A stretch of DNA of 64,000 nucleotides. Source: a bacterium (GTDB lineage Bacteria; Myxococcota_A; UBA9160; UBA4427). Shown in pieces: positions 9,128-21,882 of this stretch. A program made the position numbers and the translations under genes. The first letter of the stretch is position 1; each line of letters starts with the position of its first letter. The stretch is taken from contig JANSYR010000001.1 in NCBI GenBank assembly GCA_024742285.1, forward strand, positions 434,001 through 498,000. The letters are read 5' to 3'. The notes beneath the pieces are model-generated. The model was not told the origin of the DNA. It was given only the letters and a program-made list of their open reading frames with translations, and searched no databases.

Positions 9128-10687
9128 TCACTCGATCCCCATGAGCACGTACGACAGGTACCGCTGGTTGATCTCGCTCACGTACTTGACGGGCTCGGCC
9201 TTGCGCATGCCGAGCATCGCGATCTCGACGTGACGGAACCACCGGTCGGGGTCGAGCCCCTGCTTCGCCGCCCGCCTGCGCGCGAGCAGGACGGTCCGAG
9301 GGCCCGCATTGTAGGCGGCGAGCGCCATCCGAAGCCGGTCGCGCTCCCGCATGTCGGGCTCACTGTCGAAGTATCGCTGCTTGATCCAATCCAGGTATTT
9401 CAGGCCCGCGTGCACGTTGTTCGACGCGTTCTCGGCGCCGGCCACGTCGGCGATCCCCACGTAGGGCTCGCGCGCGGTCGTGGGCTTGATCTGGAGCAGC
9501 CCGACCGCACCCGAACGATTCCGGGCCGCCGCATCGAAGCGCGACTCCTGATGGGCCATCGCGGCGACGAGCCGCCAGTCGAGATCGAAACGGGCAGCGT
9601 GCTCGCGGAACAGGGCATCGTAGTCGGAGAGGCCGCGCTCCTCGGCGTCCGCCAGCCGACGTGCGACGCGGCCGCGTCTCTTGAAGTACCGCTCGATTGC
9701 GAGGTTGCCACGTAGACTGCCCTGCCGATGGCGGCGCAGGAAGGCGTTCATCTCGGCGAGCAGCCCGTCGGCGCCGAGGCGCGTCGCCCAGGCGAGCTTG
9801 CCGCCTTCTCGGAGCGGAGGGGCCTTCGCGATGCGGAGCGTCGGATGGAGGGCGACGAGCGTCTCCGCAACGAGGCTGTCGGCCACCGTGTACGGAAAGC
9901 GACGGGCCGCCACGAGTTCGAGGATGCGCTCCGTCTCGAGCCCGCCGTCGACGGGAAACACATCGACCGGCGGGCGCCCCGCATCGGCGAGGGTCCGATC
10001 GAGACGGGCGAGACTCTCGGCGAAGCTGCTGCTCGCGCGAACGGCGACGGTCCGGCCCGAGAGCTGTTCGAGCCGCTCGAGCGCCGGCGCCTGGTCGTGG
10101 GAGACGATCCGCTCGTCGACGCTCTGGTAGGGCTTCGAGAACGCGACCTGCTCCGCGCGTGTCGGCGTGATCGTCAGGCGCGCGGCGATCAGGTCGCCCG
10201 CCCCTTCGAGCAGGAGCGGGATCAACTGGTCGTCATCCACGGGGATCAGCTCGAACTGGATCGGCGGGGAGCTCGGGGGACGCTCGTGTCGCTCGTTCAG
10301 GAAGCGGGTGAATCCGCGTACCATCTCGTACTGGTAGCCGCCCCGCTCGCCGTCGTTCAGGAAGAAGTCGAAGGCGTTCCGCGAGGTCAGCACCCGAAGG
10401 AAGCGTGCTTCGAGCACGGTCTCGAGGCTCGCCGGGTAGCGATCCGCCACGTGCCGTCCGAGGGGTCCGGCGGTGGCCTCGGTCAACACGGGGTCGACGG
10501 GGGCCTCCGCGGCCTCGGCCTCGGCGGGTGCCGAGGTCTCCGAGGGGCGAGGGTCGGACGCCTCCTCCGAGCAGGCGAGAAAGGCGAGCAGCGCGCTCAG
10601 GATCAGCGCCATCGTGATCGGGAGCAATCGAGGACTTCGGGGATCGAGACGACCGTCCATCGCGGAGGAGTAGCACGGCGACCTCAT
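9128..10687 (-). CDS. MltF-like membrane-bound lytic murein transglycosylase
   Basis: 519 residues from the ATG at 10687, which forms an ATGA overlap with the stop of the upstream RND gene; an ATG at 10660 is the alternative start. A lipoprotein signal (ALLAFLAC) is followed by an acidic Ala/Pro linker. Next is an extracellular solute-binding type 3 domain (FLRVLTSRNAFDFFLNDGERGGYQYEM to RQGSLRGNLAIERYF). A C-terminal SLT goose-lysozyme-like domain has HQESRFDAAARNRSGAVGLLQIKP (catalytic Glu in QES), LKYLDWIKQRYF and LAAYNAGP. This is the domain order of MltF, which cleaves peptidoglycan to 1,6-anhydro-muropeptides at the outer membrane. The tail ends QRYLSYVLMGIE. Confidence 0.92.
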   Translation of the reverse strand: MRSPCYSSAMDGRLDPRSPRLLPITMALILSALLAFLACSEEASDPRPSETSAPAEAEAAEAPVDPVLTEATAGPLGRHVADRYPASLETVLEARFLRVLTSRNAFDFFLNDGERGGYQYEMVRGFTRFLNERHERPPSSPPIQFELIPVDDDQLIPLLLEGAGDLIAARLTITPTRAEQVAFSKPYQSVDERIVSHDQAPALERLEQLSGRTVAVRASSSFAESLARLDRTLADAGRPPVDVFPVDGGLETERILELVAARRFPYTVADSLVAETLVALHPTLRIAKAPPLREGGKLAWATRLGADGLLAEMNAFLRRHRQGSLRGNLAIERYFKRRGRVARRLADAEERGLSDYDALFREHAARFDLDWRLVAAMAHQESRFDAAARNRSGAVGLLQIKPTTAREPYVGIADVAGAENASNNVHAGLKYLDWIKQRYFDSEPDMRERDRLRMALAAYNAGPRTVLLARRRAAKQGLDPDRWFRHVEIAMLGMRKAEPVKYVSEINQRYLSYVLMGIE

Positions 10688-13449
10688 GCGACTCGCCCGG
10701 TCACCGACCCCAGCCGCTCCGCGAGCACACCGCTCAGGTTGCCGAGCACGCGCGCGGCGATCCGAGGGTGGCGGCGGGTGAGGTCCTCGAGGTGGGTGCG
10801 CTCGAGACGTAGCAGCCGTACCTCCGAGCGCGTCCAGACGTCGGCCGTCCGTTCGCCCGTGAAGACCGCCGCCTCGCCGACGAGATCGCCACGCCGCATC
10901 GAGCGCAGGCCGATCGATCCTTCCGGCCGCTCCGTCGAAGCCTCGAGCAGGCCGTCGATCACGACGTAGAGGGCGTCGCCGCGTTCGCCCTGCTTCAGGA
11001 AACGGCGGTCGGCGGGCACCTCGATCAGCTCCGCCATCAACGCGACGATCCGCGCCTGCCAGGGGCGGAGACCGGCGAAGAGCGGGATGGTGCGATCGGG
11101 CGCGTCGCCGAGGTCGAGGGTGAGCACGTCCCAGAGCGAGACGATGCGCATCCGGGTGGCGAGCGACGGCGTGAAGGTCAGGTCGTTGGCCCAGGCGATG
11201 GCGAGAATCACGGCGGCGAGCACGCCGAACTCGACCTGGGCCCGGATCTCGCTCATCAGCAGGGCGAGGAAGCCCAGGCAGAGCGCGAGGGTCGTGACCG
11301 TGACCGGACGACCGATCTCCGCGACCGCTTCGAGCACGCCCCGCTCCTCGTCGGCGTGCCGGCGGGCCGCCTCCTTGAAGTGCACCAGCAGATGAATCGT
11401 GTCGTCGACGGCGATGCCGAGGACCATGCACGCGACCAGCCCGGTCGTGATGTTCAGCGTGACGCCCGTCCAGCCGAGCACGCCGAAGTAGATCGCGATC
11501 GGGATCAGGTTGGGGGCGAGGGCGAGGAGGCCGGTCTTCAGGGAAGTGAAGAGGAGCGCCAGGACCAGGTAGATCAGCGCGATCGCCGTTGCGAGGGAGA
11601 GCGCCTGGCCGAGCGCGATCTCGTCCATCGTGCGGCTGAGCAGCACGGTCTGGCCGGTCACCTCCGCCTCGAGCGGCGCGGGCAGCGTCGCGAGCCGCTC
11701 CTCGATCCGGCCGACGAGCGCCATCACGTCGACCGAGTCGATCGCGCTCGTCCGCACGACGACGTTGGCGGCGCGGCGATCGGCGTCGACGAAGCGATCG
11801 ACCTCCTCGTTGCCGCCGAGCACGAGCAGCTGACCGACGAGGGCGCGCGACTCGGGGACGCGCAGGGCCGCCCGGTCGCCCTCGCGGAAGCCCTGGTTCA
11901 GCACCCGAACGTAGTCCGCGAAGGACGTGCTGCCCGCGACCTCCGGCTGCTCGGCCAGCCAGGTCTGGAGCGCGACGAGGGTCTCGAGCCGCGCGGGCTC
12001 GAGGAAATCGTCCGGCTCCGGGCTTTCGACGAGGATCTGGAATGCGTTTGCCCCACCGAGGGCCGCGTTCACACGGTCGAAGTCGAGGCGGACGGGGTTG
12101 TCCGCGCGCAGGTTGCTCACCATGTCGGTGCTGATCTCGATCCGCCCGATGCCCGCGGCGGCGACGACGGTGGCGAGGAGCCAGACGGCCATGACCGCGT
12201 CGCGATGACGCAGGTCGAAGCGCGCGATCCGGCGCAGGAAGGCTTCGAAGCGGCTCTCGGCGGGACGCTCTTCGGACGCGGATCGGGGCGCGGGGCGCCG
12301 CAGCAGCGCCAGGCACGCGGGGCCGAGGGTGATCGAGACGAAGGTCGTGGCGAGCACGCCGACGGCGCAGAAGACCGCGAACTCACGGACGGCGACGATC
12401 GGGCTGGTCGCGAGAGAGAAGAAGCCGATCGCGGTCGTCAGGCCGGTGAAGCAGATCGGCTGGATCACACGTCGCAACACGTCGGTGGCCAGGTCGGCGG
12501 GCGCCACCGCCGCCGGAGACTCCGCGGCACGCGCGTAGTAGGCGGAGACGACATGGACCGCGTAGGCGAAGCCGACCGCGATGATCACCGGCGGCGCCGC
12601 CACCGTCACGGGGTTGAGCTCGCCGAACAAGGTGCCGACCAGGGCCATGGTCCAGACGAGGCCGACGCCCACGGTCGCGAGCGGCAGCGCCACACCCCGC
12701 AGCGTACGGAACGACGCGAAGGCCGCGAGGGCCATCAGCAGGACCGAGAAGGGAAGCACGCCTCCGAGGTCACCCAGCATGAGCCGGTTCGTCTCCGCCT
12801 TGACGTGACTCCCACCGGCTATCCACACCTCGAGCCCGCCGGCCTCCTCGGCGGCGATCCGACCGAGGCGCTCGTCGAAGCCACTCTCGATCAGGTCCCG
12901 ATCCGAGAGGTCCAGCAGCGCGATCGAGATCGCCGCCACCCGACCGTCGAAGGACACGAGATTGCCGGCGTAGATCGGGTCGGCGAGCGCGCGGCGCCGC
13001 AGATCGGCGAGGGCCGAAGGGTCGGTCGGCACGTCGTCGTAGAAGGGCTCGATCTGGAGCTCGCCCCGTTCGCTTCGGATGTTGAGGGCCGTGGCGAGAC
13101 TCGAGGCGTACCGGACCTCGGGCTGGTCCTCGATCCGCTCGGTCAGGCGCTTCAGACGCTCGAGCACCTCGGGCACGAACACGTCGTCCGCCGCGATCGC
13201 GACGAGCAGCAGCTCACCGCCATCGAAGAGCGCGTTCGCGCGCGCCGCGGCGGCGAGCCCAGGATCGTCTCGCCGCAGCATGCTCTCGATCGACGGGTCG
13301 AGCAGCAGTCGCGGCGTGCCCGTGAAGGGATCGACGATCGCGGCGAGCGCGAGCAGCGTAGCCACGAGGATCGTGCCGACGACCCGGCGAGGATGCTGGG
13401 TCACCCGCCGAAGCCACCGGGACCGACGATTCTCGACCGGCTCGCTCAC
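10684..13449 (-). CDS. RND/MMPL-family exporter with C-terminal cyclic-nucleotide-binding domain
   Basis: 921 residues. It has the two-repeat architecture of MMPL/HpnN-like RND transporters: TM1 (VVGTILVATLLALAAIV), a large periplasmic loop, helices such as LPFSVLLMALAAFASF and PVIIAVGFAYAVHVVSAYYARAA, then a second set (IALIYLVLALLFTSLKTGLLAL, VACMVLGIAVDDTIHLLVHFKEAA). After about residue 800 comes a cNMP-binding domain (RRFLKQGERGDALYVVIDGLLEA, MRRGDLVGEAAVFTGERTADVWT). These exporters move lipids or hydrophobic compounds; the cNMP domain suggests gating by a nucleotide or serves as a docking fold. The fusion is uncommon. ATGA overlap with the transglycosylase downstream suggests coexpression. 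Confidence 0.9.
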   Translation of the reverse strand: MSEPVENRRSRWLRRVTQHPRRVVGTILVATLLALAAIVDPFTGTPRLLLDPSIESMLRRDDPGLAAAARANALFDGGELLLVAIAADDVFVPEVLERLKRLTERIEDQPEVRYASSLATALNIRSERGELQIEPFYDDVPTDPSALADLRRRALADPIYAGNLVSFDGRVAAISIALLDLSDRDLIESGFDERLGRIAAEEAGGLEVWIAGGSHVKAETNRLMLGDLGGVLPFSVLLMALAAFASFRTLRGVALPLATVGVGLVWTMALVGTLFGELNPVTVAAPPVIIAVGFAYAVHVVSAYYARAAESPAAVAPADLATDVLRRVIQPICFTGLTTAIGFFSLATSPIVAVREFAVFCAVGVLATTFVSITLGPACLALLRRPAPRSASEERPAESRFEAFLRRIARFDLRHRDAVMAVWLLATVVAAAGIGRIEISTDMVSNLRADNPVRLDFDRVNAALGGANAFQILVESPEPDDFLEPARLETLVALQTWLAEQPEVAGSTSFADYVRVLNQGFREGDRAALRVPESRALVGQLLVLGGNEEVDRFVDADRRAANVVVRTSAIDSVDVMALVGRIEERLATLPAPLEAEVTGQTVLLSRTMDEIALGQALSLATAIALIYLVLALLFTSLKTGLLALAPNLIPIAIYFGVLGWTGVTLNITTGLVACMVLGIAVDDTIHLLVHFKEAARRHADEERGVLEAVAEIGRPVTVTTLALCLGFLALLMSEIRAQVEFGVLAAVILAIAWANDLTFTPSLATRMRIVSLWDVLTLDLGDAPDRTIPLFAGLRPWQARIVALMAELIEVPADRRFLKQGERGDALYVVIDGLLEASTERPEGSIGLRSMRRGDLVGEAAVFTGERTADVWTRSEVRLLRLERTHLEDLTRRHPRIAARVLGNLSGVLAERLGSVTGRVA

Positions 13450-13519: not shown

Positions 13520-14194
13520 TCAGCGGAGGGCGAGGTCGGTCCGAGCGAGCCAGTCGTGGGCGCTCGCCACGATCGACCGCGTACTGCGCTCCGTGAGGCG
13601 TGCCTGGAGCATCCGCGGCAAGACCGGGCCGATCTCGACCTCGCTCGCGTAGACGAGCAGCGAGCGATCGGGCCCGAGCGCGTGGACCTCCCAGAGACCT
13701 GCGACGTGCTTCAGGTCGCTCTCGTGCTGGTCCGAGAGGGCCCAACGGATCCGCCGCGCCGTGGCGTCCCACGTGTGCCGAATCGTGTAGTCGATCCGCG
13801 TGAGGAGCACCGGCATCGAATAGCGGTCGACCGAATCGTGGCTCGAGCGTGAGACCGGATCGATCGAGCCGACCTCGCGCATGAACTCGCCGTGGCGCGT
13901 CGTCTGGATCAGGCGCCCGAAGACCTCGTCCGCGGGGCGCTCGACGACGAGCAGCGCCGAGATGAGCTCGGGACAGCCCTCGATGAACCCGGGCTCGGGG
14001 AAGGCGAAGCCGCGCTCGGCGAGGGGCGCGGCGATCGGGTCGGGCAGCGCGTCGAGCCACGCCTCCGCCGACTCCTCGACGACGGGCGGGAGCATCTCCA
14101 CGTCACAGCTCGCATGGGCGACGCCCGCGAGGCCCCAGAACACGACCAGGACCCCGAAGAGCTGCGTGGCGTTTCGGACGATGACGATCTGCAT
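13520..14194 (-). CDS. Exported SRPBCC/START-like protein
   Basis: 224 residues from the ATG at 14194, which has a strong ribosome site (GGAGGAACTGCC). A signal peptide (LFGVLVVFWGLAGVAHA) is followed by a segment with two cysteines, then a helix-grip-like domain. Features are ISALLVVERPADEVFGRLIQTTRHGEFM, VDRYSMPVLLTRIDYTIRHTWDATARRIRWALSD, VAGLWEVHAL and LVYASEVEIGPVLPRML. SRPBCC folds bind hydrophobic ligands; an exported version next to an RND lipid-type exporter suggests periplasmic lipid handling. The assignment to the fold is from pattern recognition only. It ends 70 bases before the RND start on the same strand. Confidence 0.72.
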   Translation of the reverse strand: MQIVIVRNATQLFGVLVVFWGLAGVAHASCDVEMLPPVVEESAEAWLDALPDPIAAPLAERGFAFPEPGFIEGCPELISALLVVERPADEVFGRLIQTTRHGEFMREVGSIDPVSRSSHDSVDRYSMPVLLTRIDYTIRHTWDATARRIRWALSDQHESDLKHVAGLWEVHALGPDRSLLVYASEVEIGPVLPRMLQARLTERSTRSIVASAHDWLARTDLALR

Positions 14195-14561
14195 GGCAGT
14201 TCCTCCCGGTCGCTCTCGACCCTGAGACGAGGATCGCTCGCGGGCGATATCGCTTCCGAGAAGCAGGCCACACAACGCTTCTTTTTCCGCTTTCGCGGGA
14301 CGCTCGCCACGCCGCCGCGGGCACGGCACGACGGGCACACCGGATTTCCCGTAGGCGGCCTCACACAGGTCGGCCCGGACGCTGATCCTGATACCGTCCC
14401 CGAGGTCGGGCTCGATCCGGATCCGCCGACCGCCTCCCCGATCGCTCCGGGGGCGATGCCGACGCTGGTCGTGGGTCGCCGTCTCCGGCAGGATTGGAGG
14501 CATGCGGACGCCGACCGTCGCGATGCTCCCGCGACGCGTCTCCGGGAATCGAGGACGGGAA

Positions 14562-15113
14562 ATGCCGATCACCTATCGCACGCTGCCGGTTCCGGCCTTC
14601 GAGGCGTTCACCGCGCGGATCCCCGCCGGCGCCGTGACCTTCGGCGTGGAGTATCGAAGGCTCGATGAGGCCGTGATCCTCGACTTCTACGGTCCGGACG
14701 CCCGCGATCAGTTCGATGGCGTCACGCCGGCGGGCATGGAGGGAACCATCGAGGAGGACGGGCTCTGCCTCCACGTGTTCGGAACGAGCGACGGCGCCGA
14801 GTACCTGCGCTTCGACTGCTTCGACGACGCCGCGCACTATCATCTCCTCGACCCGTTCACGCCCCGCAACGTCGTGGTCGAGCACGACGTCGCGCGCCGG
14901 GGACCGCTGCTCGACTGGGCGCTCGCGTCGTTGCTCGATCGACTGCCGGAGCTCCTCACAGAGGCAGGCGCGTCGGATCTGGCCGCGGCGGTCGATGCCG
15001 GACGTGTCGCCCACGCACTCGAGGCGGTGAAGATCGAGGTCGAACGCGCACTCGCGGCCGGTGCACCGATCGCGAGCGGCTCGCGCGATGGGGTCGGGAC
15101 GGAAACGGGGTGA
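14562..15113 (+). CDS. Conserved protein of unknown function coupled to a GST
   Basis: 183 residues from the ATG at 14562 (MPITYRTLPV), preceded by GAGGACGGGAA; an upstream ATG at 14502 lacks a ribosome site. I do not recognise the family with certainty. It is a mixed alpha/beta acidic protein with IPAGAVTFGVEYRRLDEAVILDFYG, GLCLHVFGTSDGAEYLRFDCFDDAAHYHLLDP and a helical C-terminus. It has no signal peptide or membrane segment. Its TGA overlaps the GTG start of the GST gene (GTGA), so the two are translationally coupled and probably act on related substrates. Confidence 0.75.
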   Translation: MPITYRTLPVPAFEAFTARIPAGAVTFGVEYRRLDEAVILDFYGPDARDQFDGVTPAGMEGTIEEDGLCLHVFGTSDGAEYLRFDCFDDAAHYHLLDPFTPRNVVVEHDVARRGPLLDWALASLLDRLPELLTEAGASDLAAAVDAGRVAHALEAVKIEVERALAAGAPIASGSRDGVGTETG

Positions 15114-19684: not shown

Positions 19685-19995
19685 GTTTCGTCGCTCCTTG
19701 GTCAGCGGTCCGCAAAGGTAAATTCGATGGGCCGATGGCGCCAACGCGGTCGCCTCGACGCCGGGGGGTACGCCCATCGTGTCGTCGAGATGGCGCCCCA
19801 GACGCGCAACGGCTCCGCAATCGACACGCAGCTCTCGGGTCGAAGACGCGTGCGCTGCACGGTGGCTGCGGGCCCTTTCCGGGATTCGACGCGTTTTTCG
19901 ACCGCATCCGAGGGTTTCACTCGTCCCCGGTCGCGCGACGTCCGAAACGACAGCGAAGGTCGCTCCTCGACGAGAGCGGCCCGCGAACGGCCGAG
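19685..19995. other. 311-base divergent intergenic region
   Basis: The gap separates the divergent DUF1523 and GGDEF-EAL genes and should carry both promoters. The plus-strand frame of the GGDEF gene stays open back to 19735, but this stretch has no family features, and a good start exists at 19996. No clear promoter boxes or repeats were seen. Confidence 0.4.
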
Positions 19996-21882
19996 ATGGA
20001 CGAAGCAGCGAAATCCAACGAAGAGACACGGGACGCGCCCAAGGGCTTCTCGCTCCTGCTCGTGGTCGAGGACGACCTCACCGCGAAACGGCTGGAGGAG
20101 ATCCTCGCGCGGCCCGAGGGCACGCGCTTCGAGACGACCCGGGTCCTGCGCGTCGAGGAGGCGCTGCTGCGCCTCCACGCCGATCGTTTCGACGCCATGC
20201 TGATCGACCTCTCGGTCCACGAAGCCGACGGCCTCGACTCACTGATGCGCGCGAGTGCCGCGGCGAGCGCGGTGCCGATCGTGGTGCTGACCTATCAGCG
20301 CGACGAGGAGACCGGGCTGCGAGCGACGCGCGCCGGCGCCCAGGACTACCTGGCGAAGGGCGAGGTGACGCCGGAGCTCCTCACCCGGACGCTCATACAC
20401 GCGATCGAGCGCCACCGGACTCTGCAGGCCCTCACCCAGGCCAAGCGGAAGCACCAGTTCCTCGCCACCCACGATACGCTGACCGAGCTGCCCAACCGCT
20501 ACTGGTTCATGGACCAGCTCGACCGGCTCCTCGCGCGGTCCCAGCGCAGCAACACCCCGATCGCCGTGTTCTTCATCGACCTCGACGGATTCAAGGCGAT
20601 CAACGACAACCTGGGCCACGCGATCGGCGACGAGCTGCTCGGCGACGTCGCCAAGCGATTGCGCAGCTCGATCCGCAAGAACGACCTCGTGGCGCGGATC
20701 GGCGGCGACGAGTTCCTGGCGGCGATCCAGGGCATCGAGGACGAGGAAGAGGCGTTCACCACGGCGGACGTGATCCGACAGGCCGTCGAGCGCCCCTACC
20801 ACCTCGACGGCAACGAGTGCTGGATCAGTGCGAGCATCGGCATCGCGATCCATCCCCAGCACGGCGAGGACGGAGAGTCGCTGATCCAGAGCGCGGATGC
20901 CGCGATGTACGAGGCGAAGAACTCGGGCAAGAACTGCATCCACATGTACAACACCGAGCTGAACGAGAAGGCCGCCGAGCGCTTCGAGATGGTGAACGGG
21001 CTGCGGCAGGCCGTGCTCTCGGGCCAGCTCTTCCTGGAGTTCCAGCCCCAGATCGAGGTCGCGACGGAGTCGATCGTCGGCGTCGAGACGCTGGTGCGAT
21101 GGGAGCATCCGACGCGCGGCTCGATCTCGCCCGCGGACTTCATCCCCGTCGCCGAAGAGACGGGCGGGATGGTCCAGCTCGGGGAGTGGGTCCTGCGCGC
21201 AGCCTGCCAGGCCGCGATGGGCTGGGAGGGTCTCAACGACGCGCGCGTCGCGGTGAACATCTCCGGTCGCCAGATCCACCACCACGACTTCCTGAGCCAT
21301 CTCGACCGGGTTCTCGACGAGACCGGAATCGCGCCCACGCGCCTCGAGCTCGAGCTGACGGAGTCCCTCGCGGCGAGCGAAGAGGCCGTCCAGGTCCTCG
21401 ACCAGATCCGCGAGCGCGGCATTCGGGTGGCCATCGACGACTTCGGGACCGGCTACTCGTCGCTCACCCTGCTCCGCCGGCTGAACGTCGACCTGCTGAA
21501 GATCGACCAGTCCTTCGTTCGGGGCGCCGCCCAGACGGATCCCGACGGCGTGATCCTCGAAGGCATCATCCACATCGCGCGCGGTCTCGGCATCGACCTG
21601 ATCGCCGAGGGGGTCGAGACGGTCGAGGAGATGCGCTGCCTGCTGGAGCGCGGCTGTTCGCGCATGCAGGGCTACCTGTTCTCGAAGCCCGTCACGCGCC
21701 ACGAGCTCGTGCACCTCGCCACCGACCCGGAAGCGGCCTGGCGAATCCCGATCGTCGACCCGGAGAGCTGGTCACCCGAGCTGAGTCAGCGGTCCATTCA
21801 GACCCAGACCCGAAGAGGCGGCGCGCGGAGCGGCAGTCTCCACGATCCCGACGAGCACCTCTACCCGGTGCTGAAGGACTAG
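19996..21882 (+). CDS. REC-GGDEF-EAL hybrid cyclic-di-GMP enzyme
   Basis: 628 residues from the ATG at 19996. A receiver domain (about 17-135) has the acidic pair in VVEDD, a phospho-acceptor Asp in DAMLIDLSV, the Thr in VLTYQRD and the Lys in QDYLAKGE. The GGDEF motif is intact (residues 236-240), with an intact inhibitory site RKND exactly five residues before it. The EAL domain has ETL at about 364 in place of EAL, and keeps ISGRQ, ELTES, DDFGTGYSSL, KIDQSFVRG, AEGVET and QGYLFSKP. Both synthesis and breakdown of cyclic-di-GMP look possible, gated by phosphorylation. No partner kinase is adjacent. Confidence 0.95.
   Translation: MDEAAKSNEETRDAPKGFSLLLVVEDDLTAKRLEEILARPEGTRFETTRVLRVEEALLRLHADRFDAMLIDLSVHEADGLDSLMRASAAASAVPIVVLTYQRDEETGLRATRAGAQDYLAKGEVTPELLTRTLIHAIERHRTLQALTQAKRKHQFLATHDTLTELPNRYWFMDQLDRLLARSQRSNTPIAVFFIDLDGFKAINDNLGHAIGDELLGDVAKRLRSSIRKNDLVARIGGDEFLAAIQGIEDEEEAFTTADVIRQAVERPYHLDGNECWISASIGIAIHPQHGEDGESLIQSADAAMYEAKNSGKNCIHMYNTELNEKAAERFEMVNGLRQAVLSGQLFLEFQPQIEVATESIVGVETLVRWEHPTRGSISPADFIPVAEETGGMVQLGEWVLRAACQAAMGWEGLNDARVAVNISGRQIHHHDFLSHLDRVLDETGIAPTRLELELTESLAASEEAVQVLDQIRERGIRVAIDDFGTGYSSLTLLRRLNVDLLKIDQSFVRGAAQTDPDGVILEGIIHIARGLGIDLIAEGVETVEEMRCLLERGCSRMQGYLFSKPVTRHELVHLATDPEAAWRIPIVDPESWSPELSQRSIQTQTRRGGARSGSLHDPDEHLYPVLKD

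Follow-up and report, generated by a model that had tools for sequence, protein, structure and literature searches.

Among the described transport systems, the closest to the protein reported here are the pumps of the HAE3/MMPL branch of the RND superfamily (MmpL3, MmpL4, MmpL5, HpnN and AmeD). Patched and NPC1 belong to the same superfamily. To our knowledge, there is little documentation of small intracellular signals acting as allosteric regulators of RND lipid exporters. The regulators of RND pumps named in excerpts of a review are small proteins and a lipid, and the same excerpts put MFS-CNBD fusions, in which the second part is a cyclic-nucleotide-binding (CNB) domain, on record (PMC10710835). 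Voltage and cyclic-nucleotide binding gate the transporter SLC9C1, while AmeABCD, an HAE3 system that has been studied, includes a partner from the LolA superfamily, both as described in excerpts of the papers concerned (PMC6052114; PMC6394551). When the open-licence literature was searched for cNMP together with MMPL, or for the RND superfamily together with cyclic nucleotide-binding, no paper was found, and broader literature searches gave no title on such a fusion among the matches listed. Other databases may well contain the fusion among their automatically compiled domain architectures.

The window, by which we mean the whole 64,000-nucleotide stretch of bacterial DNA that was analysed, encodes such a fusion. 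The exporter shares with the HAE3/MMPL branch the 12 predicted transmembrane helices (TM), the two periplasmic domains and the structural matches, but adds a C-terminal CNB domain and has an Asp pair in TM10 and none in TM4. Like SLC9C1, the MFS-CNBD fusions and SthK it joins a membrane transport protein to a CNB domain, and a profile of its CNB domain matches that of SthK; its transport part, in contrast, is of the RND/MMPL type. With the CNB domains of CRP, PKG and PKA it has the fold, the P-helix and the cassette Glu and Arg in common. It differs from these by the fusion to an RND transporter and by the residues R853 and P895, which are invariant across the family and which we take to lie outside the generic CNB cassette, together with a near-invariant R893 (84/87).

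The exporter and its C-terminal domain

The preliminary description had proposed an RND/MMPL exporter with a C-terminal cNMP-binding domain, and both parts score above their Pfam cut-offs. MMPL (PF03176) matches in two stretches, the best of which covers residues 128-410 (E 3.5e-40, 138.4 bits, cut-off 20.5), and cNMP_binding (PF00027) matches residues 810-894 (E 3.8e-14, 52.8 bits, cut-off 27.5). The two peptides quoted in that description were also both found in the window protein, which is translated from a GTG start to a TGA stop and comprises 921 amino acids (Table 1). The best NCBIfam match of the exporter is TIGR00921 (HAE3), yet its 223 bits stay below the cut-off of 351.9, showing that the protein is HAE3-like and falls short of membership in the HAE3 subfamily. 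The score for HpnN (108.8 bits, cut-off 751.85) is likewise below threshold.

Table 1. Positions of the exporter, its parts and its neighbours in the window; the last row gives positions in other loci.
Feature	Position	Strand	Basis
RND/MMPL exporter fused to CNB domain	10684..13449	-	ORF, Pfam, AlphaFold model
RND part, residues 1-768; 12 predicted TM, two periplasmic domains	11146..13449	-	model, Foldseek
TM10 Asp682-Asp683, putative proton-relay acids	11401..11406	-	residue counts in 87 members
Cytoplasmic linker, residues 769-805, motif LWDxLTLDLGxxP...LFxGLxxxQARIxAL	11035..11145	-	family alignments
CNB domain, residues 806-921: beta-roll, P-helix 859-864, helices B and C	10687..11034	-	Pfam, model, profile
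Phosphate-binding cassette, residues 858-869 (G858, E859, R867, T868, A869)	10843..10878	-	87-member counts
MltF-like lytic transglycosylase (SBP_bac_3 + SLT), next gene after the exporter	9128..10687	-	Pfam, NCBIfam
Exported START/SRPBCC-fold protein, 224 aa, upstream of the exporter	13520..14194	-	model, Foldseek PDB
TerB/DUF533-like tails of four fused members	L053:6726-7298(-), L052:10084-10737(+), L060:2497-3006(-), L133:7412-7939(+)		

The AlphaFold model of the exporter has a mean pLDDT of 88.6 and a pTM of 0.82, and was computed from an alignment of 74 family rows, taken from the 87 full-length members described below. Model and hydropathy together predict the 12 TM helices, TM1 and TM7 each being followed by a large loop. 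In Foldseek searches with this model the MmpL proteins (MmpL4/5/3) ranked first, followed by NPC1L1 and HpnN. Against viral models a single match fell below 0.001, to a CRP-like protein of a phage, in keeping with the C-terminal domain. MmpL-type relays such as that of MmpL3 are expected to have an Asp in TM4. Position 295 in TM4 of our family is A, S, C, T or G in all 87 members and no acid occurs at the matching place, while in TM10 D683 is present in 87/87 and D682 in 77/87 (Asn in the other 10). The absence of an acid from TM4 and the invariance of D683 suggest that the proton relay is asymmetric.

From the number of TMs (12) and an N-terminus rich in Arg, we predict a cytoplasmic location for the CNB domain. 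In the model its P-helix starts from the cassette Glu, and the helices B (884-893) and C (895-920) follow the beta-roll. The profile made from this domain (alignment A1) aligns with the CNB domains of PKG, PKA-R, Epac, SthK and CRP chains. In the window protein the cassette VGEAAVFTGERTADV contains G858, E859 and R867, and by its sequence the domain thus keeps the Gly, Glu and Arg set of a ligand-competent CNB domain. Over the 87 distinct full-length members, G858 is found in 87/87, E859 in 82/87, R867 in 84/87 and A869 in 84/87. Out of the 106 columns 800-905, those of G858, E859 and R867 rank within the sixteen best conserved. The preliminary description had named the loss of the cassette Arg and Glu in all members as the case that would refute its proposal. 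Instead, both residues are kept in 79/87 members, with E or R lost in 8. Position 868 holds Thr in 70/87 and Ser in 12/87; a Thr at the matching position favours cGMP in eukaryotic kinases and channels, and we do not take it as a basis for choosing between cAMP and cGMP.

A subclade of the fused pump carries an extra C-terminal TerB/DUF533-like tail, which in the four members examined (L052, L053, L060 and L133) scores below the Pfam cut-offs. His replaces the cassette Arg in three members, L052, L060 and L133, and hence in 3/4 of the tails examined.

Distribution and evolution of the fusion

The search for the same fusion elsewhere, which had been proposed as a check, was successful in relatives of the source organism and in Gammaproteobacteria. 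The full-length fusion occurs in 20/60 nearest genomes, a count that includes the window's own genome and in which identical copies remain, with 29 copies at E 1e-100. The C-terminal profile matches 24/282 genomes of the phylum, and every one of these belongs either to the order of the window or to a single family within its class. A first search of a contig collection with the single window protein found no relative, and the search with alignment A1 gave 120. Among the best 80 of these 120 are Myxococcota/'Deltaproteobacteria' MAGs and Gammaproteobacteria, and a few of the 80 are titled Pseudomonadota, Proteobacteria or Klebsiella. These best 80, together with the window and 28 numbered loci, make up 109 loci, which after removal of 17 with a repeated C-terminus leave the 92 non-redundant loci used throughout. 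Matches on both sides of the RND/CNB junction are present in 92/92 loci. The matches span more than 800 residues in 87/92, and these 87, being long enough, are the members on which all residue counts are based.

The putative sensor built into the pump is hence conserved across Myxococcota and Gammaproteobacteria. Named isolates with the fusion are Hydrocarboniphaga effusa AP103 and Solimonas terrae KIS83-12, both Nevskiales, and Panacagrimonas perspica DSM 26377; further named carriers are Fontimonas thermophila, Stagnimonas aquatica and Sinimarinibacterium flocculans. Its presence in named strains makes cyclic-nucleotide gating of an RND pump directly testable.

In a quick tree with 15 open forks, built from 47/87 full-length members hand-picked for spread and 23 other sequences, non-fused RND copies nest within the fused clade, and the starred branches force at least 4 changes. 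This nesting indicates that the CNB domain was lost or gained several times and argues that transport does not need it; a single fusion origin without loss was therefore rejected. One fused RND-CNB protein, L154 (G075:C236:4000-15000), is 30% identical to the window protein and stands outside the main clade on a long branch, possibly as an independent fusion or by a long-branch effect. Some records deserve a separate remark. The same fused gene lies on short contigs of two genomes of differing kinship to the window (L058 in G029, L059 in G002), one of which may be a mis-binned contig. The record L130 (CAMATU010000119.1) is titled Klebsiella pneumoniae and is probably mislabelled. Its pump groups with the uncultured MAG sequences L105 and L056, and 41 class III cyclase matches were counted in its genome.

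Carrier and cyclase genes beside the pump

Neighbouring genes were read from six-frame ORFs and not from a gene caller. As in the known pairs of LolA_like (PF17131) and MMPL genes, a co-directional LolA-like ORF lies directly upstream of the fused pump in 67/92 loci (65/84 of those with at least 900 bp upstream). Pfam assigned LolA_like to one member of each of two clusters (5.1e-47 and 1.9e-34). The gene is absent upstream in 19/84 loci with at least 900 bp, among them the whole 8-row clade of the window. The window operon has no LolA_like gene, and the three LolA_like matches of the genome adjoin non-fused RND genes.

In the window the upstream place is taken instead by a START/SRPBCC-fold gene that ends 70 bp before the RND start and encodes a signal peptide, as judged by eye. 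That an exported SRPBCC protein precedes the exporter had been noted before. The fold is matched by our model of this protein (pLDDT 82.9; helix-grip fold; SRPBCC/START structures at a Foldseek E of 1.8e-10), and Pfam Polyketide_cyc stays at 15.6 bits, under its cut-off of 23.4. Its PDB matches are ZhuI, TTHA0849, WhiE-ORFVI and a STAR-related protein from Xanthomonas. With the window included, this protein has 11 matches in 7/50 genomes, of which 4/11 have a member of this RND family within 1.5 kb, two fused and two non-fused. The commoner partner of the fused pump is the LolA-like protein. An MMPL pump with a START-fold or LolA-like carrier at its side would be suited to handing over hydrophobes, and the upstream protein of the window is possibly a periplasmic hydrophobe carrier in the place of the LolA-like protein.

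Two further clusters recur in the neighbourhoods. In 11 loci, e.g. L084:11917-12456(+), a gene for a stand-alone CNB protein lies at a distance of a few kb from the fused pump, and an MFS-like protein with HEAT repeats is encoded near 12 loci; Pfam was run for one member of each.

Class III cyclases occur close to the fused pumps more frequently than expected from their density in the genomes. A cyclase ORF is located within 7 kb in 15/92 loci, in a search with an HMM derived from these same neighbourhoods rather than with PF00211, and this cluster was singled out from about 30 neighbour clusters for its bearing on the gating question. The comparison with genome-wide density covers the 67 of the 92 loci with genome cyclase counts. 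The locus L046 had been included after its cyclase was seen, and our headline counts leave it out: cyclases are near 13/66 loci versus 1.12 expected, where some genome counts were made at E 1e-3 and others at E 1e-5, a stricter cut-off that slightly reduces the expected number, and genome sizes are rounded. After clustering of the loci at 50% identity, and with five partial members dropped (61 loci), a cyclase is found in 6/12 clusters versus 0.99 expected (P 2.8e-5, or P 1e-3 with every cyclase density doubled). With L046 kept, the figures are 14/67 loci versus 1.15 and, for 62 loci, 7/12 clusters versus 1.0. In 53/67 loci no cyclase lies within 7 kb in the flanking DNA examined. Among the 25 numbered loci outside the count, one, L062, has a cyclase-like ORF in which the metal Asp is absent by eye.

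In six loci the arrangement of these genes is tight. The cyclase of L111, L116, L126, L132, L138 and L140 shares its strand with the LolA-like gene and stops some 20-120 bp short of a possible start of that gene, giving a co-directional array of cyclase, LolA-like and RND-CNB genes; L145 keeps this order over a 1.3 kb gap. Judged by eye, several subfamilies are represented among the neighbouring cyclases, and this speaks against a single inherited accident. In 21 genomes we also compared fused with non-fused RND genes and found, among the cyclase matches listed, a cyclase within 7 kb in 8/26 versus 2/94 cases, a comparison biased by the choice of genomes with known adjacent cyclases. The 94 non-fused rows come from tblastn-type matching and in some cases represent fragments of a single gene, and one N-terminal piece of an already counted gene was left out. 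The window itself has no cyclase near the exporter gene. Its genome, a 6.5 Mb draft in 56 contigs, contains three class III cyclase matches (PF00211), all on other contigs, and 16 CNB matches, one of which is the exporter gene. A seeming cyclase link in the MmpL3 interactome was rejected, as the 'adenylate cyclase' in an excerpt of that paper is the two-hybrid reporter (PMC6656915).

A proposed gating mechanism and its alternatives

On balance we consider it probable, though far from certain, that the protein works in the inner membrane as an MMPL/HAE3-type RND exporter for lipids or other hydrophobes and is gated allosterically by cAMP or cGMP bound to its own CNB domain. Here we infer ligand binding, gating and its direction (activation or inhibition), the substrate and the hand-over. 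A class III cyclase would make the nucleotide in response to a cue. The nucleotide would then bind the beta-roll via E859 and R867, upon which the helices B and C would rearrange. This movement would be passed to TM12 through the linker, whose residues W773, D779-L780-G781 and Q798-A799-R800 are conserved in the alignments and which is likely the transmission element, and would alter the proton-driven cycle that involves the putative relay acids D682 and D683 in TM10. Finally, the RND part would draw a hydrophobe from the membrane and pass it to the periplasmic carrier, i.e. to the LolA-like protein in most members and to the START/SRPBCC-fold protein in the window. The gating reading is supported by the conserved fusion, the kept cassette and the enrichment of cyclases nearby, but is weakened by the lack of a cyclase near the exporter gene in the window and within the 7 kb flanks of 53/67 loci, by the loss of E or R in 8/87 members, by the repeated loss or gain of the domain and by the missing Asp in TM4. 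More tentatively, cyclase, periplasmic carrier and RND-CNB protein could together constitute a signalling-export module in which a second messenger sets the traffic of lipids or hydrocarbons from the inner to the outer membrane directly and post-translationally; we regard this wider idea as possible and somewhat doubtful. Gating of the pump, if real, would connect cAMP/cGMP signalling with envelope building without transcription, and would be a case of cyclic-nucleotide control in the superfamily of Patched and NPC1.

The CNB domain could instead serve as a structural or assembly module, or as a dock for a cytosolic partner, with a bound nucleotide acting at most as a constant cofactor that does not switch. 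The members that have lost E or R yet retain the domain, and the His for Arg in 3/4 of the TerB-tailed members examined, speak for this, as does a precedent for docking: structure entry titles record solved complexes of MmpL relatives with AcpM, which is a cytosolic protein. A purely structural module, however, would not be expected to have its cassette among the most conserved residues of the domain, nor to be accompanied by enriched cyclases, and we judge this explanation unlikely, if worth keeping in mind. Cassette conservation alone is no proof of cAMP or cGMP binding, since a related domain with altered ligand, that of trypanosome PKA, binds nucleosides according to an excerpt of the paper (PMC6440977). 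The fused domain might therefore sense another small molecule, such as a nucleoside, a different nucleotide or a ligand derived from a lipid. The family-invariant R853 and P895, which presumably fall outside the generic cassette, would suit such a ligand; the canonical Glu/Arg pair in 79/87 members and the class III cyclases nearby point the other way and make it quite improbable.

Even less can be said for the view that the cyclases work for other genes, such as that of the stand-alone CNB protein near 11 loci, and that the fused CNB domain is a slowly drifting relic. In L087, L089 and L100 the cyclase is indeed 3.7-6.3 kb off and on the other strand, with a member of the stand-alone CNB cluster present. 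But six loci have the tight co-directional array, and a relic would hardly retain G858 in 87/87 and R867 in 84/87 members, so that we think this very unlikely. That the pump exports cyclic nucleotides themselves, with the CNB domain as a substrate-capture site, has only the presence of the domain in its favour and strikes us as barely credible: the transport part resembles lipid and sterol carriers (MmpL3/4/5, NPC1L1, HpnN), the partner proteins have hydrophobe-carrier folds, and the CNB domain would face the cytosol, while the substrates of RND pumps enter from the membrane or the periplasm.

The gene after the exporter does not enter the gating mechanism proposed above. The preliminary description had coupled the exporter by an ATGA overlap to an MltF-like transglycosylase. 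SBP_bac_3 and SLT are over their Pfam cut-offs in this gene (NCBIfam MltF 198.6 bits, cut-off 354), and the RND stop does overlap with one of its ATG codons as ATGA. Internal ATG codons also suit a lipoprotein-like signal by eye, and with several usable starts the overlap hinges on which of them is used. As a conserved neighbour the gene did not hold up: in the flanks of 108 other loci an MltF homologue is near one only, L137, where the ORF is cut by the locus end and lies 4.9 kb away. The coupling was thus rejected as part of the system, being without conservation in the flanks examined. Elsewhere in the window, a 715-aa ORF at 19735-21882(+) reads by eye as a response regulator with GGDEF and EAL domains, and so c-di-GMP signalling also appears to be encoded near the exporter. 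Divergent from the exporter genes, a DUF7700 protein is encoded at 14502-15110(+) (Pfam 3.1e-28), adjoining a glutathione S-transferase gene.
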